From positions 4,212,438 to 4,276,437 of the forward strand of contig OX381716.1 in the NCBI GenBank assembly GCA_947462335.1: a stretch of 64,000 bases of DNA. Reading direction: 5' to 3'. The notes beneath the pieces were generated by a model. That model had not been told where the DNA came from. It was given only the letters and a program-made list of their open reading frames with translations, and searched no databases. Both the position numbers and the translations under genes were made by a program. The stretch's first letter is position 1. Each line of letters opens with the position of its first letter. Below, piece after piece: positions 11,936 to 44,439 of the stretch. This DNA is from Harmothoe impar (lineage: Eukaryota; Annelida; Polychaeta; Phyllodocida; Polynoidae).

Positions 11936-12890
11936 TATACATAAATACGAGAGTGGCCCCCCCGGGGGGTAGGGACACATACAGGGACAGGTACACAGCA
12001 TCTGGACATGACTAAAAGTATAAACGTTTGAGAATATTTTGGTCATATTGAGTAAACTACCCGGTAGTTTGATAAGACACCTGGAGCAGTCTGTACATGG
12101 GACTATGAGTATCTGTGTGAAAAGTACAAATACCAAACTCATCTTTCATTCTGGTAGAAGTTGGAAAATGTTTTGGTCATATTCTGTGTAAACTACCCGG
12201 TAGTGCTGGGTGTTACATATGGGAGCCTGGAGGGGTAGATACATCATGTGTGTGTTGGCTGGTATATACAGGTAGGTAGGGGAACCACCCAGAATCGATA
12301 CACGGATATTCAAACCAAATGTTTGATCGTTTTCATTGTGTATTTTATCTATATGATAACCAGTAATTAGACTACAAATCTAGAATTTTGAATTTAATGT
12401 GTTACCAGTGCCTTCGGCAGCTGGTTATTCCCCTATATATAAAACGGCATTATTTGGGTGGGTACCAGCGAACCATTGAATTAGCCTTGAGGTACTTGAC
12501 AGGACCAGATGAACCAAAAGAGGCTACCTAGAAATATGTACTTAATGCTAAGGTAACTCGATTTTGTTTTCAATTCCACTCAAATTAATATTTAGAGGAG
12601 TTCACATGAAACAAGTTGTCTACCTTTAAAAGAAATTCTCAAAATCAGTTATATTTCTAAAGAAAATAGTAGATAATACACATAATCCCGCAGAGTGCTT
12701 GGCAACCATAGCCAAAAGAAATCACTAGAATCCGCCATTGTATAGCATTCTTTGTATACCACTAAAATAAGATAGGTATTCAATTATGGGTATCAAATAC
12801 AAAGAAATCCTGAAGTAGATATGCTTGCCACGTTCCCCTTTAAATAGGCTATTAATCATAATGATAATTAGTGAGATATATCATCCAAAA
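11936..12890. other. non-coding stretch with repeat fragments
   Basis: It contains one diverged unit of the 60-bp minisatellite near 12215-12285. The second copy of the ~130-bp dispersed repeat is at 12428-12560. A short direct duplication of TTTTGGTCATATT and AAACTACCCGGTAGT phrases lies at about 12038-12075 and 12170-12205. Nothing else was recognised. Confidence 0.45.
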
Positions 12891-14524: not shown

Positions 14525-15600
14525 TTGTGCAGGGTACACACAGGTAGGTAGGGGCACCTGGAGCAGTCTGTACACGATGTGTGTGCTGCAGGGTACACAC
14601 AGGTAGGTAGGGGCACCTAGAGGGATCTCTACACGATGTGTGTGAGGCTGTTTACACACAGGTAGGTAGGGGCACCTGGAGGGATCTCTACACGATGTGT
14701 GTGAGGCTGTTTACACACAGGTAGGTAGGGGCACCTGGAGGGGTCTCTACACGATGTGTGTGAGGCTGTGTACATACAGGTAGGTAGGGGCACCTGGAGG
14801 GGTCTCTACACGATGTGTGTGAGGCTGTTTACACACAGGTAGGTAGGGGCACCTGGAGGGGTCTCTACACGATGTGTGTGAGGCTGTTTACACACAGGTA
14901 GGTAGGGGCACCTGGAGGGGTCTCTACACGATGTGTGTGAGGCTGTGTGTGTGAGGCTGTTTACACACAGGTAGGTAGGGGCACCTGGAGGGGTCTCTAC
15001 ACGATGTGTGTGAGGCTGTGTACATACAGGTAGGTAGGGGCACCTGGAGGAGTCTCTACACGATGTGTGTGAGGCTGGGTACATACAGGTAGGTAGGGGC
15101 GCCTGGAGGAGTCTCTACACGATGTGTGTGAGGCTGGGTACATACAGGTAGGTAGGGGCGCCTGGAGGAGTCTCTACACGATGTGTGTGAGGCTGGGTAC
15201 ATACAGGTAGGTAGGGGCACCTGGAGGAGTCTCTACACGATGTGTGTGAGGCTGGGTACATACAGGTAGGTAGGGGCACCTGGAGGGGTCTCTACACGAT
15301 GTGTGTGAGGCTGGGTACATACAGGTAGGTAGGGGCACCTGGAGGAGTCTCTACACGATGTGTGTGAGGCTGGGTACATACAGGTAGGTAGGGGCACCTG
15401 GAGGGGTCTCTACACGATGTGTGTGAGGCTGGGTACATACAGGTAGGTAGGGGCACCTGGAGGAGTCTCTACACGATGTGTGTGAGGCTGGGTACATACA
15501 GGTAGGTAGGGGCACCTGGAGGGGTCTCTACACGATGTGTGTGAGGCTGTGTACATACAGGTAGGTAGGGGCACCTGGAGGGGCAGGTGGACGATGCCAG
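14525..15600. repeat. 60-bp minisatellite, array 2 (about 18 copies)
   Basis: Units read AGGTAGGTAGGGGCACCTGG, AGGAGTCTCTACACGATGTG and TGTGAGGCTGGGTACATAC. The first part carries a TGTTTACACACAGG linker and the second a GGGTACATACAGG linker, so there are two sub-blocks. A small local duplication (GTGTGTGAGGCTGT) breaks the register at about 14940. High similarity points to recent homogenisation. Confidence 0.95.
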
Positions 15601-16330
15601 GTAGTGCTAGGGTGCTGCGTGTAACTGGGACTCCCTGTACCGGTACAGCACATGTGCCAGACCAGCACTATACACCTGTACCGGTACAGGGTTTTTACAG
15701 GTAGGTAGAGGTACCTGGAGGAGTCTACACGATGTGTGTGAGGCTGTGTACACACAGGTAAAAAGGGGCACCTGGAGGGGCAGGTGAATGATCCCAGCCA
15801 GTTTATGGTGGTTATTTTTAGTTTGTTATTTACTTAGGTTTTGAATTTTGTAGAAATGCTGAATACATACCCGACATAAACAAACCATAATTCCTTTTGC
15901 CAGTGCCCCCACCCCCACCTCCACTGGGGTGTGTGGGCCAGAGGGCCGTTTACTTAACATACTATATAAAGTATTGATGCATGAATGAAATGGACAATGG
16001 GGTCTCGAATTTATCTCATCATGTGACGTGAAAAAGAGTCTTTCAATTATGAAGATGTAAATGTTTTTGTCATATTAAGTGTAGTGCTGGGCAGCTACAT
16101 GTAACTTGGACACCCTGTACGGGTACTGTGTGTTGTTATATTTTATAGAGGCACATCCATCATGATCTGGGAATTATTACTGGTACTCATAGACCAGAGA
16201 ATGGTACAGGTATGTAGATGTGCGTAGGGCACTGTATACACAACCTGTGTGGTGCTATCTAGGTATAGGTAGGTAGGGGCAGCTGGAGAAGTGTGTACAC
16301 GATGTGTGTGCTGTAGGCTGTGTCTCACAA
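15601..16330. repeat. minisatellite fringe with ACCGGT palindromes
   Basis: Diverged 60-bp units lie at 15695-15785 and 16205-16325. Between them, 15636-15690 holds two palindromes of the type CTGTACCGGTACAG, linking this fringe to the 50-bp array. The rest (15786-16200) shows nothing recognisable. A 19-bp triplet repeat of TCTGACCGGGTGCCG follows at 16350-16397. Confidence 0.6.
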
Positions 16331-16748: not shown

Positions 16749-17273
16749 ATCATGCTTTCACTCCAAGAATTGGCTGTCATGGCCATAGCAAATCATGAGT
16801 TGGTCCCTGCTCACATTCTCTTTCCTCTTCTATCATTTGTTCATCCAGATAATGTAGATATGTTGTCTGTTCAGTTCTTTCAGGTTACCAATGGTTTTGA
16901 TTTAGTTGTCCCCGAAGAAGTTGGGACACTCATTCCCATAGCATACGGTATCGGATATTATTTGGAATACAATGGCCTTCAGATTGTTTTGTCAGGTTCC
17001 CCAGACCTAAATAGTAGGAACATCACGGTATTCTCTATAGATGTTTATTTCCCATCTTCAAACCCTCAACCTGATATTGATTTACAGTTTCTTGGTATTC
17101 CGCAATCTTTAGTTGTCATTAAAGAAACCATCTCATCTTTTCAGTTGACCTTCTCTGTTGTACATTTAATCAGAACCCCAACTGGGGCATTTATTTCAGT
17201 TTCTGAAGACCTGGATATGGTCAGTGAGCTGTTGCACAGCACACTGAATGAATGTGATGACTTTGGTTATTAA
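16749..17273 (+). CDS. unidentified ORF, 173-191 aa
   Basis: I do not recognise this protein. The open frame runs from 16698, but a good splice acceptor (TTTTCTTCTATTACAG) ends at 16748 and an ATG follows at 16752, so the protein is probably about 173 aa. The product is acidic, has few lysines, and is rich in aliphatic and aromatic residues in alternating patterns that suggest a beta-rich fold. It has no obvious signal peptide after the internal start. Its N-terminus (LQELAVMAIANH) resembles a short amphipathic helix. A stop at 17271-17273 ends it, and the next exon cannot continue the frame. It lies just upstream of the NADAR exon on the same strand. Its codon pattern and clean 525-base frame make coding likely, but it may be a terminal exon of a larger gene. 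Confidence 0.5.
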   Translation: MMLSLQELAVMAIANHELVPAHILFPLLSFVHPDNVDMLSVQFFQVTNGFDLVVPEEVGTLIPIAYGIGYYLEYNGLQIVLSGSPDLNSRNITVFSIDVYFPSSNPQPDIDLQFLGIPQSLVVIKETISSFQLTFSVVHLIRTPTGAFISVSEDLDMVSELLHSTLNECDDFGY

Positions 17274-17514: not shown

Positions 17515-17999
17515 ATACTTACAAATTAGCTCAGTGAAAGCCAAAAATTGAAAGATGGCAGGTAAAGGGGACATTGAAGTGAAGGGCGCTCAGAATGTGC
17601 TGAGCAACTTTTGGCCTTGCCCGAACAAAATTCTTTTTAGGGCAAAACTTTTCAAGAGCACAGAGCATGCCTACCAGTACCATAAGGCATTGCACTATGA
17701 CAATGAGCCCCTAGCAGATCGGATCAGAGACACTAAGGCTGCTAATATAGCTAAGAGTATTGCGGGGGGGCTACCAAAGAAAGGTTCGTGGGAGATGGAG
17801 AGAGTCCAGCTGATGAGGGAGCTTCTGTCCATCAAGTACGAGGACGTCCCAGAGTTCAAGGAGAGGCTTCATGAAACAGAAGGGCATAATCTAACTCACC
17901 CAGTGAGAGGGGATACATTTTGGGGAAGGTTTGAAGGCAAAGGGCAAGATATGTTCGCTAAGCTCCTCATGGAACTCCGGGACGGGAAGGTTAGAACAG
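17515..17999 (+). CDS. NADAR-domain exon of a NADAR-TatD fusion gene
   Basis: An exon starts after a polypyrimidine tract and CAG at 17514. A TGA at 17549-17551 lies in frame just before the ATG at 17555, which fixes the start. The 148 residues to 17999 form a NADAR (YbiA-like) domain: LSNFWP near residue 16, STEHAYQYHKAL near 35-46, a GLPKKGSWE loop, MRELLSIKY, and the C-terminal DTFWGRFEGKGQDMFAKLL. Known NADAR proteins are glycosidases acting on ADP-ribosylated guanine or NAD-related compounds. The family pattern E-x5-D-x2-WG has His in place of Glu here (THPVRGDTFWG). The exon ends in a strong donor (ACAG|GTAAGT), phase 1, matching the phase of the TatD exon at 23805. Read-through gives 27 extra residues and a stop at 18082, with AATAAA at 18068. 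Confidence 0.85.
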
Positions 18000-18067
18000 G
18001 TAAGTCTACATGTCATGACACATTAAAAGATTTTCTTGGTTTCAGAGTGGTGATGCTGTGCTGCATG

Positions 18068-18073
18068 AATAAA
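18068..18073 (+). promoter_or_regulatory. possible intronic polyadenylation signal
   Basis: AATAAA lies 68 bases after the donor of the NADAR exon and just before the read-through stop at 18080-18082. Use of this site would give a NADAR-only protein. A lone hexamer is weak evidence. Confidence 0.3.
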
Positions 18074-18130
18074 TCTCTATAATATATAAATTCATTTTGC
18101 TGACTTCATCAAAATAAATATTTTCTACAG

Positions 18131-21100
18131 ATGGCTGAACATTTTAAGGTACCCCCTCTAGATGTGCTCAGAGGGCTTCCATTTGCAACTTTGGTGAAGT
18201 TACCTCAAGATGTTAGTGCTCCTGTTGATGTTGAGGTTCCAGTTGGTAGACCAATTCCATGTGCTAATTGTTGTGTTTGTGCAAAGTTGTTGTTAGAACA
18301 TCAGGTGAAATGGATGCCAAACTTGCGTGAGGAGTTGTGGTCTGCGAGGGAAGTCCTCCAGGAATCCAATCCAACAGGCATAAAGACTAAGACTTTTCCA
18401 CGTAAAGGACTTTGTGTCTCGATATGTGGTATATGTTGGGTAAAGGTCAAGTCAGGCAAAATTAATGAATTTTCAAATACATGTGTGACAAGCGAGGACT
18501 CTAACATTACAATAGTACAAAAGTACTTTGATCTGGTTACAGATACCATAGAAGATTTGAAAACAGTCAAACCAAGCGCTGTATGCTGTCTCTGTGCAAG
18601 GATCATGTATCCTCATGAAATACACTGGGTTGCTAAATTTGATGAAAGCTCATGGCGTGCAAAACCCATCATTCCTGAGGGTAGCCCAGTCACTATTGAG
18701 ACAAAAGTTTTTGAAAAGAAAGGTTTGTGTGTCTCTACATGTTCCCTGTGTGAAATCAAAATCAAAAAGGGCTATAGCTATGTGAACAATTTTGATTTCT
18801 TGGACAACTTCGGTCATTTGCCTGACTGTTTCAAATCATTAAGTTCCTATGCTCAGTTCAGAAAGCTTTCCATAGCCAATCTTTTTTGTTCGACATACAA
18901 AAACTCTGGGTATTCATACCTCCATGCCAGGGGAGATGTTTCATTCAGTCTGAATAAGCCAGATACATTGAAAGGGATGATAGGCATGTTGCATGATGGG
19001 AATGAAGTCCCATTAGAAACAAGCAACTCTCTGCTGAAGAAATGCTTGCTGTGGTTAAAGGAAAACAACTCTTTGTACAAAAAGTTCCTTTCAGCTCTTG
19101 AGACTCTTCACGGTTATGTTCAACCAAAAACATCAGGTAGTTTATTTTGTGGGCTGCCCGTTCGCACACCTGACATGCACATTGTTGATGATGGTCCCAT
19201 ACCAGCAGCAGACTTAGAGAACCAATCAGGGTTAATCTTCCCAACCAATCTTCCTAAACTGTCCAAAGATGAAATGGATGCTTTGCGTAAAGCAGCAGTT
19301 GGCAAGCAAGTGACAAAAACTGACAAAACTGACTCAGTGAATCACCCATATGCTCATATTGAAAATGTTTCATGTGCTGATCCTTTACTGGAAGCGAAAA
19401 TATTTCCACATCTATTTCCCTATGGACTTGGATCATGGCAGCAACCAGATAGAGAACGTCGTAGCTTCACTATTGGTGCATATCACAGGCATAGGCTACT
19501 GCATGCAGACAGAAGGTGGGCAAATGACAGATGCTATCCCTTCTTTGCATTTGATCGGAACATCAAGGCCCGCCTTTCCTACATTAACGGTTCTCTTGCA
19601 ACAAACAAGGATAGGGAGAAAAATCTGGATGCAGCTACTGTCAGTAAGAACTACTACCAGTATGGTACTGTGGTCAACAGTACTATTCCAGGCAGTAAAG
19701 CATATTGGCAAAAGCACTATCTTGATTTGGTAGCGAGGGTTAGTGTACATGGTCCAGGAGACATTTTCTTCACAGTAACTCTAAATGAATCATGGGAGGA
19801 ACTGAAAGAAATTCTCTCACAGTACAAATGCAAGGCAAGTGTCCAACACCCGGTTGAGCCAACTGTTTACTTTTTTGAAAGGTACAATGCTGTAAAGCAT
19901 TTGATAGAAGGTAAGAACAGCGTCTTTGGGGAAGTACAGCATGTCTGGCACAGAGTTGAATCCCAAAATAGAGGGGCCCTTCATATTCATGGCATACTTT
20001 GGCTGAAGGATGGCACATTCATACCTGACAGCATTATAGCAGAGATGCCACGGGGGGAGGACAAGATCACAAAAGATTTGAGGGTGTTAGTATCCAAATT
20101 CCAGGTACATTCTTGCCGTCCTAACAGGTGCCTTCGCACAAGTAAGGGGAAACCCATGGAAAAATGCAAGTATGGTTTTCCATTTTCACAGAGAAAGTCT
20201 GACGGCTATGAGGATGGGGGCGTGAAGTATGAGTACAAGCGCTCAGAGAAAGAAGATTCTAATGTTGTACCATACAATCCTCTCTTGCTCATGGCATGGC
20301 GTGGACATCTCAATGTGCAAAGGATAACAAATACAGGGCTAGAAAGGTACTTAGTTAAGTATGTGTCAAAGGATGAACCATCATTCAATGTAGAGGTAGA
20401 AAAAGAATCTGCAGTCTCTAAGTATTTGCAGTCTCGCCTTATTGGGGCTCCTGAAGCTGTTGCGATGCTTCTATCATATGCAATGGTTGATTCAGATTCA
20501 AAAGTTATCTTCCTGGACACAAACCTATCTGATCAGCGTGTCAGGTCTCTTAGGCCCAAGCATGTTGTCGATGCTGATGCAGGAGACAGTACTGATGTGT
20601 TCACTGATGGATTGAGAGAACATTATGTACATCGTCCTAAATCTGCAGAGTTTGAGGACATGACTTACCCCCACTATTCATGTAACTATAGACTAGACAA
20701 AGCACAACCCAAGAAAAAAACAGTTCCAGTAGATATGGATGGCATCTTTATTTGCCAACGTTCTCCTATGGTCCCAAGGTATAGGTTTCTCACAGCAACA
20801 GATGGTGAGCCTTTCTACTTCCAGCACCTACTCCTACATGTTTCATTCAGAGATGAAAGGGATTTGATCAGTGTAGACAATGAAAGTAAAACATACCAAG
20901 AGGAGTGTTATATTCGTGAGCTATTCATGGTAGAAGATGAGCTTGATGTCAGTTTTCATGAAATGAAAAAACGCAACTTTGACCCGCGACACATCTCTAA
21001 GGTAGCAAAGAAAATGCTGAGCAAAGATCTTGCAAGCTCTGATGCAATCTCAAAGAAGATAGCTGATTTAGAATATGGGGAGGCTATTCCATTTGAGGCA

Positions 21101-23545
21101 GAAAACCTTGAACCCTTTGAAAGTGTGCCTCTAGGAGAAGATGACTCTGATGAAACACCTGAGATTCAAAAACTTCTGAGCACGAACATCAGTAAGCTTC
21201 GTCAGGAACGTAAAGATCTCTCCGCTTTGTATGATCAGTTAACAGTTTGTCAAAAGCAGGTCTATGATTACATAAGTCAGCATCATGACAAACAGATTCT
21301 GTCCTTCATAACAGGACCTGGAGGTACCGGAAAAAGTTTCCTGTTGCATACTCTGCAATCACACTTAGAACTATCGGCCAATATCGTTGAGGTCCTAGCA
21401 ACTTCTGGGAATGCAGCTCAGCTAATTGGGGGTCAAACTATCCACAGCTTTTTCAAGTTAGGGCCAGATTTAGACAGGCACTTTTCATATTGTGATATGA
21501 CTTGGTCAGCCATAGCTGCAACAGATGTCATCATAATTGATGAGATAAGCATGATGACTGGAGAAATGCTCGAAGTCTTTGATAACATCTGTTGTGAAAC
21601 AGCAGGAGAAGAAAGTGGGAGAAAACCATTTGGTGGGAAAACAGTTCTACTCTTTGGGGATTTGTACCAGCTCCCAGCAGTAGTTTCAGACAATTTCCGA
21701 AGGCAGATTTACCAAAGTCCTCTATGGTCAAAATTCAAACCATTTTTTCTTGATACAAACTGTCGCCAAAAAAATGACCCAACTTTTCAAGTGCTCCTCA
21801 ATAATATTCGGGAAGGGAAGCAAACCGATGGAGACATTGAAACTCTCAAAACTAGGGTATGTGGGGAAGGACATGAAATTACAGAACTGTGCATGAACCA
21901 TGACAGACAGTCATTCACACTATGTTCTCTACATGTCCTGAGAAAAGAGGTCAATGAAAACATTCAGGAAACAACATTATTAGATCAACAAATGCATCAT
22001 CTAGATGCTCGGGATTGTGATGCCTCAGGAAATCGTCTGTCAAATGACCATTCTAAAAATCTAGACAAAGAGAAGGGTATTATGCCAAGGCGAATTACGA
22101 TCCGTATAAATGCTAGAGTCATGATAACGAGAAACATAGATGTGGTTGGTGGTGTTGTCAATGGTACTGCAGGGATTGTGCGTAAAGTGCATGAAAATTT
22201 CCTTACAGTTGAGATGTTGGATGGAAGTCGCAAGATTAAAGTGCAAAAAGTTAAGCAAAAGACTACTCTACCTGGTACATGTTTGCCTGTGTATCGGGTA
22301 CAGTACCCAATCACATTGGCTTGGGCATGCACAGTGCATCGAATGCAAGGGTTAACAGTTGAAAAAGCCCACATGAAACTAGACAACAGTTTTTTTGCCC
22401 CAGGACAGGCATATGTTGCATTGAGTCGTGTTAAAAGTCTCAAGGACATCCACTTAACATCTTTCAATTCAATATGCTTTCGGAAGAACACTGTCATTAA
22501 TGACCTTATGGCCAATGCCAGAGAAACAGGCACATTGAAGGCTATCCTAAGGCCTATTTCTCAGCCCTGTGCCCAAAATGATGTGCTTCAGAAAGAAACT
22601 ACTAATGTAGTTAAGGAAGAACCTATGTGTTCTGCTCCAACACTACCTGAAAAAGTCAATCTCCAAAAGCGAAAAAGTCAGTCCCCAAAAGCTAAAGCAG
22701 CTGTAGAAGCAAAGAAAAAGAAAAATTTCTCTTCGCCCAATGAAATTGTAGAACGTGGTTCAGCTCAGGAAATTCGCCAGCAGACATTCCGTCTGCGCAC
22801 TGAGCTCAATTATAGTTTCTTTAATCCAGTAGTCCAAGCACAAAAAATCAGTGACTGTCTAGATAATTTTAGACCAATGTTCAGAAAATTTGAACACTTT
22901 GTTCAAAGATCCCCACTTTCAATTACATCTGAAACCAGTGAAATTTCTGCCAATGTGGGTTCCAAATTACATCCAGCAATGTTGTCTGAGTATTCTCCCA
23001 TCTTAACAACAGGAGATGGCAATTGCCTATGGAACTCTGTGTCAATTTGCATCTGCGGAGATGAATCCATAAGTCTCACTTTGCGATTCCTGACGGTTGC
23101 AATGATGTGGAAACATAGAGAGTACTTCCTTCAAAAAATCCTTAATGATACCATTAGAGATGGAGGTACATGCGAAGAGAGATATGATCAGTATCTTAGA
23201 GAAGCCAGAAATGATAGGGAATGGGGAAGTGAAATACATGTCCTTGCTTTATCGATAGCACTTCAAAGAGACATATTCTGCTTCTCAGTTTTTTCATCTG
23301 ACAAGGGCACTTGGTCTATTTCAAAGAAAGCTACCCCACAGATGTTAGCTACAGCATTTGAAAACAGAAGTAGAGGTACTGGACTACACTTACTGTACTG
23401 TACACCCACACATTTGAAAGGTCCAACCTACAATGCACTACCAATCTCTATTCATTATGATGCAACAGGTCTACACTATACAGCTATACTGCCCAATAGA
23501 CCTGATGCAGTTTTGTTTCGCCCATACACAAATCTGTTTACATGA
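18131..23545 (+). CDS. Helitron Rep-helicase with C-terminal OTU domain (1,804 aa)
   Basis: This is the replication initiator and helicase of a rolling-circle Helitron transposon, uninterrupted over 5.4 kb. In order it shows two ~105-residue-spaced Cys modules (C47xxC50..C95x3C99xxC102 and C153..C200x3C204xxC207). A Helitron-like N domain follows, with the HUH motif H618-I-H620 (RGALHIHGILW) and catalytic tyrosines Y740 and Y744 (YLVKYVSK). A PIF1-type helicase has Walker A GPGGTGKS 1062-1069, Walker B IIDEIS 1135-1140 and a late AYVALSRVKS motif. A basic linker of about 150 residues leads to an OTU cysteine-protease domain with DGNC1632 and H1782 (LHYTAI). All expected catalytic residues are present, so the protein may be active. 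The ATG follows directly on a splice acceptor (TTTTCTACAG|ATGG). It lies in the same orientation as, and inside the intron of, the NADAR-TatD gene. Confidence 0.95.
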   Translation: MAEHFKVPPLDVLRGLPFATLVKLPQDVSAPVDVEVPVGRPIPCANCCVCAKLLLEHQVKWMPNLREELWSAREVLQESNPTGIKTKTFPRKGLCVSICGICWVKVKSGKINEFSNTCVTSEDSNITIVQKYFDLVTDTIEDLKTVKPSAVCCLCARIMYPHEIHWVAKFDESSWRAKPIIPEGSPVTIETKVFEKKGLCVSTCSLCEIKIKKGYSYVNNFDFLDNFGHLPDCFKSLSSYAQFRKLSIANLFCSTYKNSGYSYLHARGDVSFSLNKPDTLKGMIGMLHDGNEVPLETSNSLLKKCLLWLKENNSLYKKFLSALETLHGYVQPKTSGSLFCGLPVRTPDMHIVDDGPIPAADLENQSGLIFPTNLPKLSKDEMDALRKAAVGKQVTKTDKTDSVNHPYAHIENVSCADPLLEAKIFPHLFPYGLGSWQQPDRERRSFTIGAYHRHRLLHADRRWANDRCYPFFAFDRNIKARLSYINGSLATNKDREKNLDAATVSKNYYQYGTVVNSTIPGSKAYWQKHYLDLVARVSVHGPGDIFFTVTLNESWEELKEILSQYKCKASVQHPVEPTVYFFERYNAVKHLIEGKNSVFGEVQHVWHRVESQNRGALHIHGILWLKDGTFIPDSIIAEMPRGEDKITKDLRVLVSKFQVHSCRPNRCLRTSKGKPMEKCKYGFPFSQRKSDGYEDGGVKYEYKRSEKEDSNVVPYNPLLLMAWRGHLNVQRITNTGLERYLVKYVSKDEPSFNVEVEKESAVSKYLQSRLIGAPEAVAMLLSYAMVDSDSKVIFLDTNLSDQRVRSLRPKHVVDADAGDSTDVFTDGLREHYVHRPKSAEFEDMTYPHYSCNYRLDKAQPKKKTVPVDMDGIFICQRSPMVPRYRFLTATDGEPFYFQHLLLHVSFRDERDLISVDNESKTYQEECYIRELFMVEDELDVSFHEMKKRNFDPRHISKVAKKMLSKDLASSDAISKKIADLEYGEAIPFEAENLEPFESVPLGEDDSDETPEIQKLLSTNISKLRQERKDLSALYDQLTVCQKQVYDYISQHHDKQILSFITGPGGTGKSFLLHTLQSHLELSANIVEVLATSGNAAQLIGGQTIHSFFKLGPDLDRHFSYCDMTWSAIAATDVIIIDEISMMTGEMLEVFDNICCETAGEESGRKPFGGKTVLLFGDLYQLPAVVSDNFRRQIYQSPLWSKFKPFFLDTNCRQKNDPTFQVLLNNIREGKQTDGDIETLKTRVCGEGHEITELCMNHDRQSFTLCSLHVLRKEVNENIQETTLLDQQMHHLDARDCDASGNRLSNDHSKNLDKEKGIMPRRITIRINARVMITRNIDVVGGVVNGTAGIVRKVHENFLTVEMLDGSRKIKVQKVKQKTTLPGTCLPVYRVQYPITLAWACTVHRMQGLTVEKAHMKLDNSFFAPGQAYVALSRVKSLKDIHLTSFNSICFRKNTVINDLMANARETGTLKAILRPISQPCAQNDVLQKETTNVVKEEPMCSAPTLPEKVNLQKRKSQSPKAKAAVEAKKKKNFSSPNEIVERGSAQEIRQQTFRLRTELNYSFFNPVVQAQKISDCLDNFRPMFRKFEHFVQRSPLSITSETSEISANVGSKLHPAMLSEYSPILTTGDGNCLWNSVSICICGDESISLTLRFLTVAMMWKHREYFLQKILNDTIRDGGTCEERYDQYLREARNDREWGSEIHVLALSIALQRDIFCFSVFSSDKGTWSISKKATPQMLATAFENRSRGTGLHLLYCTPTHLKGPTYNALPISIHYDATGLHYTAILPNRPDAVLFRPYTNLFT
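18131..23545 (+). mobile_element. Helitron (autonomous type), ends not found
   Basis: The Rep-helicase-OTU gene defines the element. The surrounding intron leaves only about 130 bp on the left and 259 bp on the right. In these I could not find a convincing 5'-TC end, a 3'-CTRR end, or a terminal hairpin. Either the ends are diverged, or the element is larger and includes neighbouring exons. The coordinates given are those of the gene, not of the element. Confidence 0.7.
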
Positions 23546-23804
23546 AGCAGCTGCGATTCACTGTGTTTATTTTCCTACCTGTATGTGTTTCATCTAGGTC
23601 AGCCAGCATCACCACCCTAATTTTTCGAGCTTGTAGAATATATTAGAATATATCACCCTCACTTGAATTCTCATCATGGATTTTGATGATTTATAAGCAT
23701 TATGTATGATATACTGAACTCAAATTTCTTTTTAATTCATATATTTCCGTAACTTTACAAATTAAACACCTTTCTATTTAATGTATCATTTCCACTTCCT
23801 ACAG
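23546..23804 (+). other. intron remainder between Helitron gene and TatD exon
   Basis: AT-rich sequence ends in a polypyrimidine tract and CAG (acceptor at 23801-23804). A short direct duplication of AGAATATATTAGAATATAT lies at about 23635-23655. No Helitron 3' terminus was identified. Confidence 0.5.
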
Positions 23805-24672
23805 GCGACAAGTTTCAAGTGCACTGCCGTGGACTGTGCAGTGATTACCTGTACACAGGGAAATGCCAGACGACGAACTGTCCGTCAGCAGAGATCCCAG
23901 CAAAGTACAAGTACTTTGACAGCCACTGCCACCTTGACATCCTGAGAGATTGGGTTAGGTTCGATATCGATCAGGTTCGAGGTCCACCAAACTACGGCGG
24001 TTGTGTGGCAAACTTTGTCTTCCCCAATAACCACCATCTGATAAATGAGTTGACCGGCCCCACCATACATCCTACTCTTGGAGTTCACCCATCAGCTGCT
24101 CATCTGCTTGATGCCAATTTGAAAGTGGAGTTGACAGCACGGGCATCGCTCCATGATGTTGTGGCTATTGGTGAGGCAGGACTTGACTCAAAGTGGAAAA
24201 CACAAGGAGTCAAGACACCTGTCCAAGTCAAGGCCTTTACTTCCAGGTCCAATTGGCTGCACGACTGGAAAAGCCTTTGGTTGTGCACTGCAGGGACTTT
24301 AGCACAGACTGTTTGGCTCTGTGTAAGCAGTACCTACCACACACCAGTAAAATCCATCTGCACTGCTTCACTGGTAACACCCAAGAAGCTGACCAGTGGA
24401 TGGGGTACTTTCCCAATCTGAGAATTGGAGTTACTGGTAAGGTGTTTCATGAAGAAGTTGTTCAGGACCTCGTCAAGTTTCTTCCTTTGGAGAAGTTGGT
24501 CCTGGAAACAGATGCCCCGTTTTTCCCACCACCTTCATCAGACTTTAGGTTTTCCTATCCCCAGTGTGCAGTAGCAATAGGACAGAAGGTGGCACTGTTG
24601 AAGAAGACTTCTCCCCGGAGAGTATTGAGCAGTACCACCAACAACACGCTGGTTCTTTACAATCTTATGTAA
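23805..24672 (+). CDS. TatD/TATDN2-like nuclease exon of the NADAR-TatD fusion (one frameshift)
   Basis: The exon starts after CTTCCTACAG at 23804 in phase 1, so it joins the NADAR exon as RTG|DKFQVHCRGL. A Cys-rich link (CSDYLYTGKCQTTNC) resembles a partial CCCH or knuckle motif. The TatD barrel follows with all metal ligands of the family: DSHCHLD, GEAGLD, VVHCRD, LHCFTG and ETDAPFF. Sequence style is closest to human TATDN2. TatD enzymes are Mg-dependent 3'-exonucleases or endonucleases, and TATDN2 acts on RNA or DNA:RNA structures. The frame shifts by one base near 24236-24243 (GCCTTTAC), between QVKAF and YFQVQ. One extra T would restore it, so this is either a sequencing or allelic indel or a disabling mutation. 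Everything downstream is intact to the TAA at 24670-24672. Confidence 0.85.
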
Positions 24673-25129: not shown

Positions 25130-25960
25130 ATCCTAGGTTCCACCTCGACCACTGTTGGACTTAGTATGTTCGGCGTGGTGTGGTGATAGAGGGTTGTAGA
25201 GTTTGGGTTGGATTGTAGGTTCCACCTCGACCACAGTTGGACTTAGTATGTTCGGCTTGGTGTGGTGATAGAGGGTCGTAGGGTTTGGGTTAGATTGTAC
25301 ATAGGTTTCGCCTCGACCACTGTTGGACTTAGTATGTTCGGCGTGCTGTGGTGATAGAGGGTTGTAGAGTTTGGGTTAGATTGTAGGTTCCGCCTCGACC
25401 ACAGTTGGACTTAGTATGTTCGGCGTGGTGTGGTGATAGAGGGTTGTAGAGTTTGGGTTAGATTGTAGGTTCCGCCTCGACCACGGTTGGACTTAGTATG
25501 TTCGGCGTGGTGTGGTGATAGAGAGTTGTAGAGTTTGAGTTAGATTGTAGGTTCCGCCTCGACCACAGTTGGACTTAATATGTTCGGCTTGGTGTGGTGA
25601 TAGAGGGTTGTAGGGTTTGGGTTAGATTGTACATAGGTTTCACCTCGGCCACTGTTGGACTTAGTATGTTCGGCGTGGTGTGGTGATAGAGGGTTGTAGA
25701 GTTTGGGTTAGATTGTAGGTTCCGCCTCGACCACAGTTGGACTTAGTATGTTCGGCTTGGTGTGGTGATAGAGGGTTGTAGGGTTTGGGCTAGATTGTAC
25801 ATAGGTTTCGCCTCGACCACTGTTGGACTTAGTATGTTCGGCGTGGTGTGGTGATAGAAGGTTGTAGGGTTTGGGTTAGATTGTACATAGGATTCGCCTC
25901 GACCACTGTTGGACTTAGTTTGTTCGGCGTGGTGCGGTGATGAGGGTTGTAGGGCTTGGG
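25130..25960. repeat. 82/85-bp tandem array, 10 units of two alternating types
   Basis: Units contain CCTCGACCAC, GTTGGACTTAGTATGTTCGG and GTGGTGATAGAGGGTTGTAG, and start at about 25134, 25217, 25302, 25384, 25466, 25547, 25632, 25714, 25799 and 25884. Type A begins GTAGGTTCCGCC (82 bp). Type B begins ACATAGGTTTCGCC (85 bp). The order is A A B A A A B A B B, which suggests unequal exchange among mixed units. Confidence 0.95.
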
Positions 25961-28145
25961 TCTACCTTCACTGTACTGAGGAGGTGAGGTCATATCTAGT
26001 ATAACCAGATAATGGTGTGCCTAGCTATCTGGACCACTGTCAGGTTAGGGCTGCTTGGTGTATTGTTCTACTGACCAAGGTTTTCACACATTTTGGAATT
26101 ATCTATTCATCAAATAGTTTGTTTCTTTTTTTCTTACAACACATTTGATCCATTTCTGTATTCTCTTTGGTCAGAGATAGGTTTCTTGGATGTACTTTCT
26201 GTATGCAGGGTACATTACATTAAATACTTTTGCATGATGCAGGTAGTTGATCCAATCGGGAAATTATCTTACTAGCTGTGATATTTGGAAATATTACAAT
26301 TCAAGTAATTACCATCCCATTATTCCTTCAAAATCTAATTTAAGAATTGATAAGAAAAAAGCAAGCTTAGATGAAAAGTAATCGCAATGTAAACATTTTT
26401 CGATGTTATTATGTGTACTATATCAGTAAAAGGGAATCGTTAGAGGACATCTTCCATTTGCAGAATATCATAGTTCAGTGATTACCCTGGTAGTGTCATG
26501 ACATTGGTTTAGATATGCTAATTGTGGTTGAAATTTTATAACACAACTTAATCTGAGTGGACTTAATTTCCTGCATCATGCCAGTACATTTTTGTAATGG
26601 ATATTAAATATACCCTGCATACTATAGGACTCATACTTCGTGGCTTTTGTATGAGACCTTACATAGATTAAATTCTTAGATGAAAGGAAAAAGTTTAAGA
26701 TGCTATCTGAAATATATTGCCAGGTGTCCTTAAAGAGTATTAACAGAACATCAATCAAATTATTAGTCTCTTGAATTTTTGAAGAATACTTAAACCAATT
26801 TTGACAAAGTCTTTTACATTTTAGTCCCCCACCGTATTGTACTTAAAATGTTTGTAATTTTCAAATATCCCAATCTCATATTCAGATTATAAATATTAAC
26901 TGTATAATTGTAGCTTCTGAAAGTAATGCTGAAGTAGAAGACTCATTTAAATATGCATTCAATAATTCCACATAATATATGTTTATCTTCTACATAAGGT
27001 CTATATATGACATTTATAACTGGAATCGACAGAAGCCACTTATAGCCGTAATAGACTAAATTAAACAGGTATACTGGCAATATGTTTCAGGGTGCTGACT
27101 ATTGATTGTTTCTTATGTTAAAAAGCCACAAGCAGTGTTGATGTATATTTAATTTAATCAGTTGAGTATAGGAGCATGAGTACTGCTTAAGGTCTGTTCT
27201 CTGATAATCTATTTTGTAACTGAAAGGTTGACTGTGTAAGTAGCAGGATAGCATTTGCATACTTATAAACATGAAACTAACTACAATCATTACCAAAAAT
27301 ATAACTTTATTCCAAAAAATAAGTGTCATAGGACAGACTGCTAGGGCCCGATTGTCCAATCGGATGATTGAATCCTCCAATAAAAGGGGAGGACTTGCTT
27401 CCAGTTGTTAAAGTAAAATGCCAAGTTATTCATAACACTTTTAAACATCATGCATCTTTCCACAGCTAAAATCTGCCTGTAATATGAACAAGGATGACAT
27501 GAACACCAAGACAGATCCATGCTACTGCAGTTACTGAAGGATGGCCGTAGTTGATCCAAGCTGTTGCAGTCATCAAGTCTTGCCTTCCAAGTATTCAACC
27601 CAACTTAGTGATTTGTGAGTACCAGCTTTTCAGTTTCTCACTTAACAGTGAACCTTGCCATGCCAGCTGCCCACGCCATGAAAGGACTGCCACACCCCTC
27701 TATCCAGGTGCTGAAGGATGACCCAACCGCATCAAAGGCATTGCAGTCCTCATCATTAAAGCCAACTTAATTATTTGTGAGTACCCGCCTTCATATTTCT
27801 CAGTGAAAATTACCCCCCTCCGCGCTCCAGTCACCGAAGGCGCTGGTATTCATTTAAAAATGGCAAGATCACTAATATGTATGTTTGTCACAAATGCTAT
27901 ACTGCAAATGGTGCCATAGATTGTTAACTAGCAGTCCAATCCTCTTGTAATTCGAAACACATACTACCCATGACATGTCAACATCAATACCATTATACAA
28001 TTTTTTGGAAATTGGCTTTATTTTTTTTAAGCTTACCAGTATGCTATATGGGATTTGTATAGAAACATAACTATGATTTAATTTTGCCACTGCACCATCC
28101 ATAGGATTGCTTAGCTCTCTTTATATGGTTGTAATAATTATTTTT
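25961..28145. other. non-coding, AT-rich stretch
   Basis: Nothing protein-like is present. A diverged ~165-bp duplication lies at 27530-27650 and 27700-27810, sharing CTGAAGGATG, TTGCAGTC, GCCAACTTA and ATTTGTGAGTACC. No other structure was recognised. Confidence 0.4.
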
Positions 28146-37026: not shown

Positions 37027-39131
37027 TTTTTAAGGTTTGAAATGTCTTTATTTGCCAAATCACAAGTTACAAACGTGTGTTATATTTTATGACAAATAAA
37101 ATGAAGAATCCTTGTCAATTCGTTGAATTACATCATTATAAGCAGATAGGATGATATAAAAATGAAATATACAGATGATATAAAGATGGAAATGCAGTGA
37201 AAACATTATGTACAGATAGATACAAAAAGGTCTACCACGACTGAATATTATTACTGGACCACTTTAGATGAATAGAGCACAAATGGATTACAGCTTAGCG
37301 TATCTCAATATACATTTAGAAATGCATCCTAGGGTATTACCTAGCACAGTCAATAAGTTGAAATAAAGCACTTAGCCTTTACATCCTTATTAAGGTACAA
37401 CTGTTTACAATTCAATTTGTTATAGAGTTACATTTAAGAGAACAGCATTACGGGAGGACAACACGAGAAAGTAGGTAACAGAGCACTGCCTAGACTATAT
37501 AAGATGCATAGTATGTTTCTGTAATTTCTATTGAACGTAAGTTATGCAAGATATGTGTAAGATCTGTGTAACCTGTTGCAAGGGTACCATGAAGTCACTA
37601 CAACTTCCCAGCATTGATCCATGTGCCTGCAATGAAGTTATTACAACTTCCTATTCAACACATCAGACCAAACTGAATCTATGAGGTGAAATGAAGTCAC
37701 TACAACTTCCTATCACAACACAAATCCAGCCCCAAAACAGCAATAGTGGTCACATTCAAAACCTTGCAGAGATGGCATAATCATCCACCACAATTACCAA
37801 GTATATCAAATGACCCCTCCTCAGTCATCATTAGGCATAGCGTTTTTCGGGTTGGGAGTTTTAGTAGTCAAATCCGAGATAGTGGCCAGCCTTAACTTGA
37901 AGGTTGGCTTATCCTTGCTTTTCTGATACCAATCACCAAGATTATCCCAGAGTTGAGCCCCTCTACAGAGAGGTGCCTTTGTATATCCTCTGCTTCTAAC
38001 CCTAGGAACTTTAAATTTTATCTTTCCCTCCGATCTCAGACCTTGCCTATTGACTGTATGGTCAACCCAGCAGTCCCGTTTTGATAGTTTGTACATGTAA
38101 CTTAGGAGTAGATCCTGTCTCCTCCTTGGCAGTCTAGGAACCATGGACTTGCCATATAACTGGTCCTCAGAGTAATCTTTACCCCTATAACAGATCTTAA
38201 GACCCCTGAGCTGAAGGCGATCCAATTTCTTGAGGCTGCCTCCATTGGCCCCATCATGAGCAAAACTTGCATAATCAAAAAGACTAAGGATCGTTGACTT
38301 GTACACCCCCACACTTACATTTTCAGTCATGAGACTACGATAACCTCCCATTCTAAACAACTTGTGATTAACCTTAATATTAAGATCTTTCAGTGCTGGT
38401 TCAAAGCTTAGAGGGCTATCTATCTTTAAACCCAAATAGGTGTATGCATCAACAACTTCCACATTTTGTCCTCGCAACTTAAAGACAATTCCCTTTGCCC
38501 TTGGGAGTTTGCGGGTTGAGCCATACCACACAACCTTGGTCTTGTCTATATTAACAGTTAGGCGTTTATCCAGGCACCATTGGGCAATATTGTCCATAGT
38601 AGCTTGGAGTCGTGCTGTAATTAGATCTATGCGGTTGGCAGAGCTATAGACAACAAGGTCATCAGCATACAAACTGAATTTGCACTCACCCATTCTATCT
38701 ACAACGTCATTGATGTAGATTATAAACAATAAAGGTCCCAAAACTGATCCCTGAGGGACACCAAAACCAACATTTGCCCTATCTGAGTAAGTAGATCCAA
38801 TTTTTGTATACTGTGATCTTCCAGTCAAGTAGCTCATTAGCCAATTTAGCACTGTGTCATGCAGACCTAGCTGCCCCAGGATTTCAAACAAATAGGTGTA
38901 GTGTACAGAGTCAAACGCCTTTTTCAAGTCCAAGAAGCAAGCACCAGTCAAATGTCCCCGAGATCTATTCTCATAGACATCATTAAGAAATGCAAATATA
39001 GCATCCCCTGTGCCCCTGCCAGGTCTGTAACCATACTGCTGTTCATTAAGAAATTCACTGTCAGATAAAACATTCATCAGATGAATATGCATCAGGCGCT
39101 CACCAACTTTAGATGGAATAGGTAGCAATGA
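37027..39131 (-). mobile_element. 5'-truncated non-LTR retrotransposon in the satellite
   Basis: The element lies on the minus strand between two halves of the 145-bp satellite. Its 3' end is at the left, with AATAAA at 37052-37047 followed by a run of A (T6 at 37026-37031 on the plus strand). It is cut off at the right inside the reverse transcriptase region, typical of incomplete target-primed reverse transcription. The satellite phrase ATCATA is found on both sides, a possible short target duplication. About 790 bp of 3' UTR follow the stop. Confidence 0.85.
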
Positions 39132-39137
39132 AATCAT
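37821..39137 (-). CDS. reverse transcriptase of a LINE (N-terminally truncated)
   Basis: The 438-residue open frame carries the reverse transcriptase core. Motif A is FLDLKKAFDSV (aspartates at about 70 and 76), motif B is VPQGSVLGPLLF (128-131) and motif C is YADD (157-160). Upstream it has the GYRPGRGTGDAI block. The endonuclease domain and the start of the RT are missing. The apparent ATG at 39135-39137 is donated by the flanking satellite, so this is not a true start. The lack of stops or shifts suggests a young insertion. Style is of the CR1/L2/Jockey superfamily, but I cannot assign the clade. RT copies the element RNA at a nicked target; this copy cannot be autonomous. Confidence 0.9.
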   Translation of the reverse strand: MISLLPIPSKVGERLMHIHLMNVLSDSEFLNEQQYGYRPGRGTGDAIFAFLNDVYENRSRGHLTGACFLDLKKAFDSVHYTYLFEILGQLGLHDTVLNWLMSYLTGRSQYTKIGSTYSDRANVGFGVPQGSVLGPLLFIIYINDVVDRMGECKFSLYADDLVVYSSANRIDLITARLQATMDNIAQWCLDKRLTVNIDKTKVVWYGSTRKLPRAKGIVFKLRGQNVEVVDAYTYLGLKIDSPLSFEPALKDLNIKVNHKLFRMGGYRSLMTENVSVGVYKSTILSLFDYASFAHDGANGGSLKKLDRLQLRGLKICYRGKDYSEDQLYGKSMVPRLPRRRQDLLLSYMYKLSKRDCWVDHTVNRQGLRSEGKIKFKVPRVRSRGYTKAPLCRGAQLWDNLGDWYQKSKDKPTFKLRLATISDLTTKTPNPKNAMPNDD

Positions 39138-39425
39138 ACCTACCCCCCCTAATATGGACCCAAGGAATTTAATGGTTCTGTTGGTTTGTTGCTAATACTG
39201 CTGGTTGCCTAGCAACGGCTATTCTAATTGTTTATCTGCCTAGCAAGGCACATTTCCATGGTCCTAAGGTTGATAATAATCAAACCTACCCCACTAATAT
39301 GGACCCAAGGAATTCAATGGTCCTGTAAGTTTGTTGCTTATTCAGCTGGTTGCCTAGCAACATCTATTGTAATTGTTTATCTGCCTAGCAACACACATTT
39401 CCTTACCCCTAACATGGACCCAAAG
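39132..39425. repeat. 145-bp satellite, resumed (about 2 copies)
   Basis: The array continues directly after the LINE with AATCATACCTACCCCCC and two GTTGCCTAGCAAC sites (the second followed by ATCTAT). The last unit is more diverged and breaks off at ACCCCTAACATGGACCC. Confidence 0.9.
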
Positions 39426-42843: not shown

Positions 42844-44014
42844 TTATTGCAAAGACTGAGAGTTATTAATTTGGGTATTTTGGCTTCCACCAGCCACATG
42901 GTAGGTGATACTGTTGATGTGGAAGTGTACGTCACCGTGAATGACAGCCCCACCCAGGATTTGCGATTCTAGGCGCTGGAGACTTGCTCTCACTGTGGTT
43001 GGTACCGGAGGACTCGAACGCGACAGGTTGTTGGCTCCCTGGGTGCAAGCTGGCACCTCCACCGCTCTCGCTGGGGTAGGACATGGAGATTGCCGTGGTC
43101 CACGTGCTGAGACCGGGCGGCAAGCTGGAACCTCGACGGCTCTTGGTGGAGGGGAGGCGGCCAACGCTAGCGGAGCCGCACAGGCTGAGGACTGCCTGAC
43201 ACGCAGCTCTTCGCTGTAGTTTGTGATCCCTTCATCGTTCATTATATCTGAGAGGAGCTGCTGCTGAGGCATGGAGGTTGTTACATAGTTAACCACACTG
43301 TTCACATTCTTGTGGCCTGAAGCCTGGCATATCATCGTATCTGGCACACCAGCGTGGTACAGCCGAGACATCATGGTTTTTCTGATTGTGTGCCCTGCTA
43401 TCCGCCCTGACAGCTCACCGTCCGCAGCTATGTCGCCCATCAAGTTGCCGAGGGAGTTCTTTCCCATTTGCTGTACCATGTAGCAGACATCGTCATCTAG
43501 TGAACACTTTGGCTTTACTACAAGGAACAATGGAGAATACTCTTTACACATATCTACGGGTCGTTTAGCCAAATAGAGCTCCCATAACTTCAGTATGCAT
43601 CTTTCTGTGCCAGTCACCCACACCTTGGGAGGATATTGACGAGGCTCGTTGTCACCGTCCCTGGTCTTAGTCACCTTCTCATTCCACTCGATGTACCTGC
43701 GGCCGTCATCTCCTGTGAGTATTTCCAAGTCGCCAAGAAGGCATTGACGAGCCTCATGGCGAGCCCTCCAGCCATACGTTGTTCCCATAATGTAAAATAT
43801 GGTTCTCTGAAGAATGCAAGGGGTGGAGGCTCCGAGGGCTCCATTCCCCCAGCACTTCTGCAACTTGACGCTGTCCATTGGGATGCAGCGGTTAGGCTTA
43901 TTCCCCATGCCTTTCCCCTTCAATACTCCTTTTCTGGTCTTGAGCACACCTTTTGTGGACTGGAATTCAGTATGCTTCATGATGTCCCAAGGATAGCCTT
44001 CATCTCGGAGATGC
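42844..44014 (-). CDS. tyrosine recombinase, catalytic exon (DUF3504/Crypton type)
   Basis: The 3' exon begins after TTCCTTTTCAG (acceptor next to 44014) and runs to TAA at 42844-42846. It reads on from the previous exon as AIAR|HLRDEGYPW. The catalytic set of tyrosine recombinases is visible: Arg in TTYGWRARHEA (near 43765), a Lys in WNEKVTK, H-x-x-R in GHTIRKTMMSRLYHAG (43390-43382), His in ASGHKNVNS (43312) and Tyr in VVNYVT (43285). A Ser/Pro/Ala-rich tail and a final VIHGDVHFHINS segment follow. These enzymes cut and rejoin DNA through a 3'-phosphotyrosine. The family is also domesticated in animals (KIAA1958, ZMYM and QRICH1 relatives), so a host gene is possible, but the setting inside a minisatellite favours an element. 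Confidence 0.85.
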
Positions 44015-44439
44015 CTGAAAAGGAACAAAAATGGTGAATATTAACATGCAGTCAATAGCCATCAACATGGAGTTCCACAGACGTGACACCCCACCACACA
44101 GGCCTGAAGCTATAGGCGTCAACTCCGCCAGCCCGCGCTGTCACCGTCCCGCTGTCATAACTTCATCAAAACACTTGAGTACTACATATTATACAGGTTT
44201 CCACTGTTCCCATATTAAAATATAGCGAAAAAAATCATTTCCAACCCAAGCCCGGTAAGAAATAATTAATTTTACACTGAAATCGAGCCTTTGTGACTTT
44301 GGGCCGAATCAAAACAAACCCGTGTCAGCGTCCATGTATCATCTGGGAAACTATGTATTTCAACCATTTTTACACCATATTAATCAATGGGAATAAGAAA
44401 TCCAGGTGTAAAACACAATAGGCAGCAATAAAATATTAG

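Follow-up and report, generated by a model that had tools for sequence, protein, structure and literature searches.

Introduction

The rolling-circle transposons known as Helitrons and their relatives are the closest described systems to the locus considered here, a Helitron-like element with a NADAR exon and a TatD exon in a stretch of 64,000 nucleotides of the polynoid annelid Harmothoe impar (GenBank assembly GCA_947462335.1, contig OX381716.1, positions 4,212,438 to 4,276,437; G000:C14:4212438-4276437), and this whole stretch is called the window below. In the passages of PMC4067079 that concern these relatives, Helentrons are described with an apurinic/apyrimidinic (AP)-type endonuclease domain on the RepHel protein, and Helitron2 with inverted terminal repeats, palindromes at both ends, and a single open reading frame (ORF).

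The NADAR enzymes take ADP-ribose off guanine, according to the relevant parts of PMC11543638 and PMC11125620. The earlier note on this DNA had spoken of the reversal of DarT2-type modification, which has to be corrected, since in the same sources NADAR reverses the guanine (DarT1-type) ADP-ribosylation and DarT2 modifies thymidine. Shellfish are known to ADP-ribosylate DNA, and their enzyme CARP-1, a DNA ADP-ribosyltransferase of the clam, is proposed in the text of PMC8053099 to serve innate immunity against DNA viruses. NADAR domains of transposable elements are already in print, namely, in Gypsy elements and in Tx1 long interspersed nuclear elements (LINEs) of the oyster (PMC12477816, in the part on these elements). 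A Helitron with either NADAR or TatD was not identified in the open-access literature, subscription journals and Repbase lying outside the search, and the open-access papers that pair NADAR with TatD were unrelated by title.

The NADAR and TatD Exons Enclose a Replicase Gene

The window probably contains one copy of a Helitron-like transposon whose NADAR-CCCH-TatD accessory protein would come from a gene spliced around the nested replicase gene and would act on the nucleic acid of the element. Judged from the sequence of the whole genome, the NADAR-TatD gene is an accessory gene of the transposon and not a host repair gene, because all five other CCCH-TatD exons matched from end to end have NADAR upstream and RepHel sequence beside both exons. 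The host self-protection or repair role suggested in the earlier note finds no support here, and from its proposal of a fused animal gene the fusion is retained, as the splice is supported by the sequence, while the host gene is given up, since the exons are carried by a transposon.

The NADAR exon matches PF08719 with an E value of 5.6e-18 and 66.2 bits (cut-off 35.1), and it begins with its own ATG, ahead of which lie an in-frame stop and a strong acceptor (17515, score 10.8). The match of the TatD exon to PF01026 is split over two overlapping frames (E 3.3e-9, followed by 1.7e-28); a frameshift near 24,236-24,242 thus interrupts TatD of the window, although the assembly may be in error there. 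Between the exons an ORF of 1,804 amino acids takes up nearly the whole proposed intron and possesses the HUH motif (ALHIHG), the two-tyrosine motif RYLVKY, the Walker A motif GPGGTGKS, and the OTU motifs DGNC and HYTAI; by these motifs and its Pfam domains it is a Helitron-type replicase. The claim that no better partner exon lies nearby holds by phase, but it had passed over this RepHel-OTU ORF inside the intron. The coordinates are collected in Table 1.

Table 1. Positions of the element's parts in the window and of the related places elsewhere in the genome.
Feature	Position	Strand	Description
Upstream ORF of the element	16752..17273	+	173 amino acids; ATG three bases after an acceptor-like AG
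First coding exon	17515..17999	+	Acceptor 17515, 5' untranslated region, ATG 17555, NADAR, phase 1 end
Proposed intron, 5.8 kb	18000..23804	+	Phase 1 on both sides; encloses the replicase gene
RepHel-OTU ORF	18131..23545	+	Intact, 1,804 amino acids; Pfam and motifs
Helitron_like_N	19481-19999	+	Pfam, inside the RepHel-OTU ORF
PIF1 helicase	21236-21826	+	Pfam, inside the RepHel-OTU ORF
OTU	23012-23323	+	Pfam, inside the RepHel-OTU ORF
Second coding exon	23805..24672	+	CCCH-like knuckle 23837-23893, TatD domain, frameshift near 24,240
82/86-bp tandem repeats	25134..25964	+	3' part of the element; also in L012 and L013
Probable 3' terminus	27820..27847	+	Ends CCGAAGGCGCTGGT; ending common to the C5 and C7 copies
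Five further NADAR/CCCH-TatD places	C8:31.96 Mb, C7:14.08 Mb, C7:63.77 Mb, C5:71.12 Mb, C4:30.15 Mb		On four contigs

Related Copies in the Genome

The whole genome (1.51 Gb, 736 contigs) was searched with each exon. The TatD search gave 63 rows, two of them the window itself, and at five further places NADAR and CCCH-TatD were found with strand and order as in the window and about 6 kb apart, with E values from 2.9e-26 to 4.9e-24 for NADAR and from 8.7e-67 to 6.0e-59 for TatD; the remaining TatD rows are partial or belong to TatD of another type. Three intact copies, at C5:71.12 Mb, C8:31.96 Mb, and C7:14.08 Mb, were read entirely, and in each of them RepHel separates the two exons with an open frame of 1855-1877 codons. 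In the copies at C7:63.77 and C4:30.15, of which the ends alone were read, RepHel sequence adjoins NADAR and likewise adjoins TatD. The HUH, two-tyrosine, and helicase motifs occur in four of four copies, and Helitron_like_N and PIF1 were matched both in the window and in L071, the two copies covered by the Pfam scan of RepHel. The NADAR profile was matched in L071, L069, and L070 with 55.3, 65.3, and 57.1 bits, respectively, and the TatD profile in three copies with 135-147 bits.

The only NADAR/TatD neighbours seen without a replicase are L012 and L013 (C7:82.35 and 82.71 Mb), where a NADAR fragment lies beside a fragment of the TatD end together with the same 82/86-bp repeats, and both are apparently internally deleted copies. 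A separation of the two domains into different genes of relatives, which the earlier note took as an argument against a fusion, was not seen within this genome. Clusters of fragments were also observed, with 7 NADAR rows at C18:67-68 Mb (6 with a stop) and 22 TatD rows at C3:74-91 Mb (14 with a stop), which appear to be graveyards of these exons.

Outside the two exons, homologues of the ORF upstream of NADAR, in which no Pfam family was matched, are present in L010, L014, and L015 at 83-85% identity and as a 70% piece in L011/L031, loci which all entered the comparison through their NADAR matches. Downstream of TatD, L069 (8962-9411) and L070 (9014-9406) have a small charged, coiled-coil-looking ORF with an acceptor-like AG directly before its start; the ORF of L069 gave no Pfam match, and that of L070 has relatives of 83-85% identity in L047 and L048 and none found in the window. 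The window contains further mobile elements, that is, an ORF with the reverse transcriptase domain RVT_1 (37824-39191, minus strand) and another ORF in which DUF3504 and phage-integrase-like domains occur (42847-44040, minus strand).

Proposed Splicing of NADAR to TatD

The splice sites were ranked within each locus by a simple weight matrix. On the plus strand of the window the donor at 18000 comes first among 3901 GT sites, while the acceptor at 23805 takes the 19th place among 3997 AG sites, which agrees with the earlier reading of both exons as real and bounded by strong phase-1 sites, although the frameshift in the second exon went unreported there. In L069, L070, and L071 the donors rank 1/564, 8/561, and 2/565, and the acceptors 3/769, 1/765, and 4/756, respectively. 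The donors (exon boundary at the slash) are G/GTAAGT in the window, L010, and L011, G/GTATGT in L069, G/GTATGA in L070, and G/GTAGGT in L071, L022, and L025, and the acceptors are CTACAG/G in the window and L069 and TTCCAG/G in L070, L071, L043, and L045.

The coding part of the first exon is 445 nucleotides long, or 1 modulo 3, so that the phases of the NADAR and TatD exons match, and phase 1 was found wherever a donor or acceptor could be read, except L012, whose NADAR fragment has no donor. This phase is retained between lineages with 40-51% protein identity, and the similarity of the proteins ends at the donor and resumes at the acceptor. In the window and L071 the TatD frame is open without an ATG ahead of the domain, and an in-frame stop precedes the split codon by 8 codons in L071, L043, and L045 and by 14 codons in L070. 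By these signals splicing most likely links the NADAR exon to the TatD exon, and use of the splice in the animal is what we infer from them. Splicing of NADAR to the replicase was also considered and rejected because of a phase mismatch, as the phase-1 donor joined to an acceptor at 18131 leads to a stop at the third codon.

Conserved Residues and Selection

Residue numbers and invariance refer to a four-sequence alignment of the window, L069, L070, and L071, in which the window row was read through its frameshift with X. NADAR residues E38, K45, and H116 are invariant in all four lineages, and the spacing of seven between E38 and K45 equals that of E88 and K95 in the NADAR of E. coli C7, residues given as catalytic and largely conserved in the part of PMC11543638 that treats them. 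The third catalytic position is described as His in phage NADARs and as Glu in the YbiA family (PMC11125620, in its account of this position). Among the NADAR rows compared, all 11 of the Helitron-TatD and SGNH groups have His there, and Glu stands in 3 of 3 LINE rows and 4 of 4 YbiA-type rows, the motif not being picked up in L035 and L036; accordingly, the Glu of the last strand typical for YbiA is not present in the NADAR of the Helitron-TatD group, which has His instead.

The metal ligands of TatD proteins are HxH, E, H, H, and D, and residues of this type (H190, H192, E273, H308, H333, and D385) are invariant in the alignment, with sequence matches to 1yix, 1xwy, 2y1h, and others. The CCCH zinc finger follows the pattern C-x7-9-C-x4-5-C-x3-H. 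A CCCH-like pattern was recognized by eye in L070, L071, P0001, and P0122, with the His replaced by Glu in the window and by Arg in L069, and no Pfam zinc-finger match was reported. CCCH-TatD relatives with 39-55% identity (P0121-P0125) occur in other sources, so that the nuclease part exists outside this genome as well. Among viral contigs, 59 pattern matches led to 2 loci with TatD only at 26-27% identity and without a fusion, and among prokaryote genomes 79 pattern matches led to 5 loci with single domains and no fusion.

Among the four lineages the proportions of synonymous (pS) and nonsynonymous (pN) differences are 0.66-0.81 and 0.32-0.41 for NADAR, 0.78-0.86 and 0.33-0.47 for TatD (5' part only for the window), and 0.78-0.81 and 0.23-0.36 for RepHel, the frameshifted NADAR row of L025 being left out. 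The synonymous sites are therefore at or near saturation (pS 0.66-0.86), with nonsynonymous values far lower. Close pairs gave dN/dS of 0.24 for NADAR (L071/L022; 9 synonymous and 8 nonsynonymous changes) and 0.11 for TatD (L071/L043; 5 synonymous and 2 nonsynonymous changes). The related copies share their domains, gene order, and splice sites with the phase of these, and selection keeps their reading frames.

Both domains occur in other settings in this genome as well. The NADAR search gave 3484 first-look candidates, from which 150 were scored, all 150 over the cut-off. L005-L008 (C1, C2, C18, and C13) are LINE-like, with an ORF1 that ends in a Glu-type NADAR and is followed by an AP-endonuclease-like ORF; ORF1 has 427-471 amino acids in L005-L007 and is broken in L008, and Pfam was run on L005 only. 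In L014, L016, L018, and L019 a NADAR ORF (about 300 amino acids in L014, L016, and L018) precedes an ORF that is SGNH-like by eye, which gave no Pfam match in L016, and L016, L017, L018, and L020 carry part of a Helitron helicase 1.2-1.3 kb ahead of NADAR. P0050 (673 amino acids, from another source) combines NADAR and a below-cut-off GDSL match in one protein, and P0178 is listed with it under the NADAR/SGNH-like arrangement. The opposite order, GDSL first and NADAR second, was found by Pfam in a 333-aa ORF of L036, with equal ORF length at L037, L038, and further places of near-equal score. As to TatD, an ORF of 629 amino acids with a C-terminal TatD (Pfam run on L055) was seen in L055-L066 and also in L053, L054, and L067, which is probably another mobile element because of the equal score and ORF length at 12 places on different contigs.

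Ends and Class of the Element

The copies on C5 and C7 and in the window have a common 3' end, ..CGAAGGCGCTGGT, past which the flanks diverge, at a distance from TatD of 3.6 kb in the C5 copy and 3.2 kb in the window. The C4 copy parts from the others a few bases short of this end, inside the hairpin, and two C15 copies (97% and 95% identical) stop at 27841, a different high-copy repeat beginning at 27847. The hairpin of the C5 copy has an 8-bp stem, with 2 of 200 shuffles as stable, and that of the window is unremarkable (83/200). A canonical Helitron ends in CTRR after a hairpin; the common 3' end here is ..GGCGCTGGT, with the C5 hairpin at the very end, and so differs from it.

An inverted copy of the 3' end was found upstream in 4 of 10 stretches, those of C5, C4, and C7 (0/200 shuffles each) and the window (1/200), the other six stretches being short. 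In the window this copy had suggested a 5' terminus at 12,404, but a separate insertion that ends at this point is the better explanation, because the flank 12150-12404 recurs on C10 (95%) and C20 (89%) and stops there, with another multicopy repeat from about 12419-12428; the terminus was therefore given up. The minisatellite-like sequence upstream of the element (14700-15780) matches many places, including some near other NADAR loci on C14 and C5 (98 rows; 40 of 3405 candidates scored), and is too widely scattered to locate the 5' end.

The HUH motif, the two-tyrosine Rep, and the PIF1-type helicase place the element among the Helitron-like transposons. No Exo_endo match was obtained in RepHel of the window or L071, so that the AP-type endonuclease that marks Helentrons is missing there. 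Compared by descriptions, the element appears nearest to Helitron2, although it has more than one ORF and Helitron2 is described with a single one.

Weighing the Readings

Several observations weigh against a spliced accessory protein of a transposon. The copy in the window is broken by the TatD frameshift and by the change of the last His of its zinc knuckle to Glu; it looks decayed, and its TatD probably no longer yields a working protein. The C4 copy is broken too (NADAR frameshift; TAG in TatD), and the nearest NADAR copy, L010 (89%), carries a stop and shows a dN/dS of 0.53 to the window. An in-frame ATG stands 8 codons before the acceptor in L070, a Met lies just past the acceptor in L069, and the relatives P0001 and P0122 have a Met exactly at the exon start, so that TatD might be made on its own in some lineages. 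Among the database matches listed (the best 120 of 405, 1 of 1, and the best 120 of 1252, with precomputed Pfam) no protein has both domains, most of these proteins appearing to be unspliced predictions. No firm 5' end was recognized for the element, whose known coding part starts at about 16,660. Finally, the NADAR tree does not unite the window copy with the other three in one clade (8% of 200 bootstrap trees), so that a single capture of NADAR does not follow from it.

Among the other explanations, one refines the preferred reading and is possible, if somewhat doubtful: each ORF may receive its leader through trans-splicing or from a 5' exon that the ORFs have in common, with NADAR-TatD as one of several products of a single pre-mRNA and splicing as the switch that selects replicase or accessory enzyme. 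An acceptor-like AG is found directly before the NADAR ATG in L069, L070, L071, L022, and L025. The coiled-coil-looking ORF of L069 and L070 also has such an AG immediately ahead of its ATG, as does the replicase of the window, and in L069 and L070 the AG ahead of the replicase is displaced by one base. Against this, the window has a weak acceptor at the replicase ATG (top 7.5%), L071 and L022 have none there, and no leader was identified.

Rather unlikely is the explanation that the fused protein serves the processing steps of transposition and not a counter-defence, where TatD would cleave or resolve DNA intermediates, as the AP-type endonuclease may in Helentrons, and NADAR would have a minor or different role. 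It would fit a RepHel without the endonuclease domain that Helentrons have in the description of PMC4067079, and the metal nuclease fold of TatD with its conserved ligand-type residues. NADAR, however, is not a bystander, because it retains catalytic-type residues and is under purifying selection.

That NADAR and TatD are transposon cargo made as two separate, never-spliced proteins is improbable, even though the NADAR ORF stays open beyond the donor to 176 codons and possible TatD starts exist in L069, L070, P0001, and P0122, as the four lineages possess high-ranked, phase-matched donors and acceptors, the window and L071 offer no ATG in the TatD frame ahead of the domain, and the sequence beyond the donor is not conserved between lineages. 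Very improbable is a pair of passenger fragments without function for the element, of the kind that Helitrons are described to capture from host genes (PMC6431247, in the part on capture); it is disfavoured by selection, and the domains are complete, the splice sites are maintained, and nonsynonymous change stays low even between strongly diverged copies. A host NADAR-TatD repair gene with a Helitron landed in its intron by chance, which in the window alone would look identical and would suit the strong, host-like splice sites, is hardly credible and was rejected on the whole-genome NADAR and TatD searches, since the five other full-length matches on four contigs repeat the arrangement and only the apparently deleted L012 and L013 lack the replicase.

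Proposed Function

In the preferred reading of a spliced transposon accessory gene, the known coding part of the element would reach from about 16,660 to the 3' end at about 27,847 and comprise two genes of equal orientation, one nested in the other. The inner gene, which has no intron, would encode the replicase (Rep, PIF1 helicase, and OTU), and the outer one, spliced around it, a single protein of NADAR, CCCH-like zinc knuckle, and TatD nuclease, the choice of splicing setting whether replicase or accessory enzyme is produced. The favoured target of the latter would be the element's own single-stranded DNA or RNA, from which NADAR may remove ADP-ribose placed by the host, comparable to the guanine mark of clam CARP-1, and of which TatD may trim damaged or displaced ends; alternatively, TatD may substitute for the Helentron endonuclease. 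Rolling-circle elements pass through single-stranded DNA, so that an enzyme that cleans the strand would pay.

In its boldest form, which we put forward as speculation and regard as unlikely, the proposal is that a DNA transposon has its own anti-ADP-ribosylation enzyme, which would strip guanine ADP-ribose set by CARP-1-like or PARP enzymes of the host on the single-stranded intermediate and trim the strand, alternative splicing toggling between copying and defence. If true, the ADP-ribosylation arms race of phages and RNA viruses would extend to transposons, and the capture of NADAR by more than one transposon class in one genome would be explained. Should NADAR act on the DNA of the element, this would point to nucleic-acid ADP-ribosylation as an anti-transposon defence in animals. 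The conserved pair of nucleic-acid enzymes encoded around the replicase is, for rolling-circle transposons, a concrete accessory module open to experimental test, and caution is advised with animal "NADAR-TatD" gene models, as they may be transposon genes.

Comparison with Known Systems

With Helentron, Helitron2, and proto-Helentron, as far as the descriptions in PMC4067079 go, the element shares a RepHel protein (HUH, two tyrosines, and PIF1), an OTU-type protease, accessory genes, and a 3' palindrome, as seen in the C5 copy, and it differs from them by the lack of the AP endonuclease and by a NADAR-CCCH-TatD protein from a proposed spliced gene enclosing the replicase. The Gypsy elements of Ectocarpus and ORF1 of the Tx1 LINE of Pacific oyster (PMC12477816, in the part on NADAR) are likewise transposable elements bearing NADAR; in contrast to these retroelements, a rolling-circle DNA element is concerned here, with His in the third position where the LINE copies of the genome have Glu.

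The DarT1-associated and phage NADARs are similar in the Glu and Lys seven residues apart, and the phage NADARs in the His of the third position (PMC11125620 and PMC11543638, in their sections on these residues), whereas the present domain is eukaryotic, joined to a nuclease, and seen without a toxin partner. The TATDN-type animal TatD proteins have the same TatD domain with conserved metal-type residues, and the protein described here would be distinguished from them by the CCCH-like knuckle and NADAR at its N-terminal side and by being encoded in a transposon.

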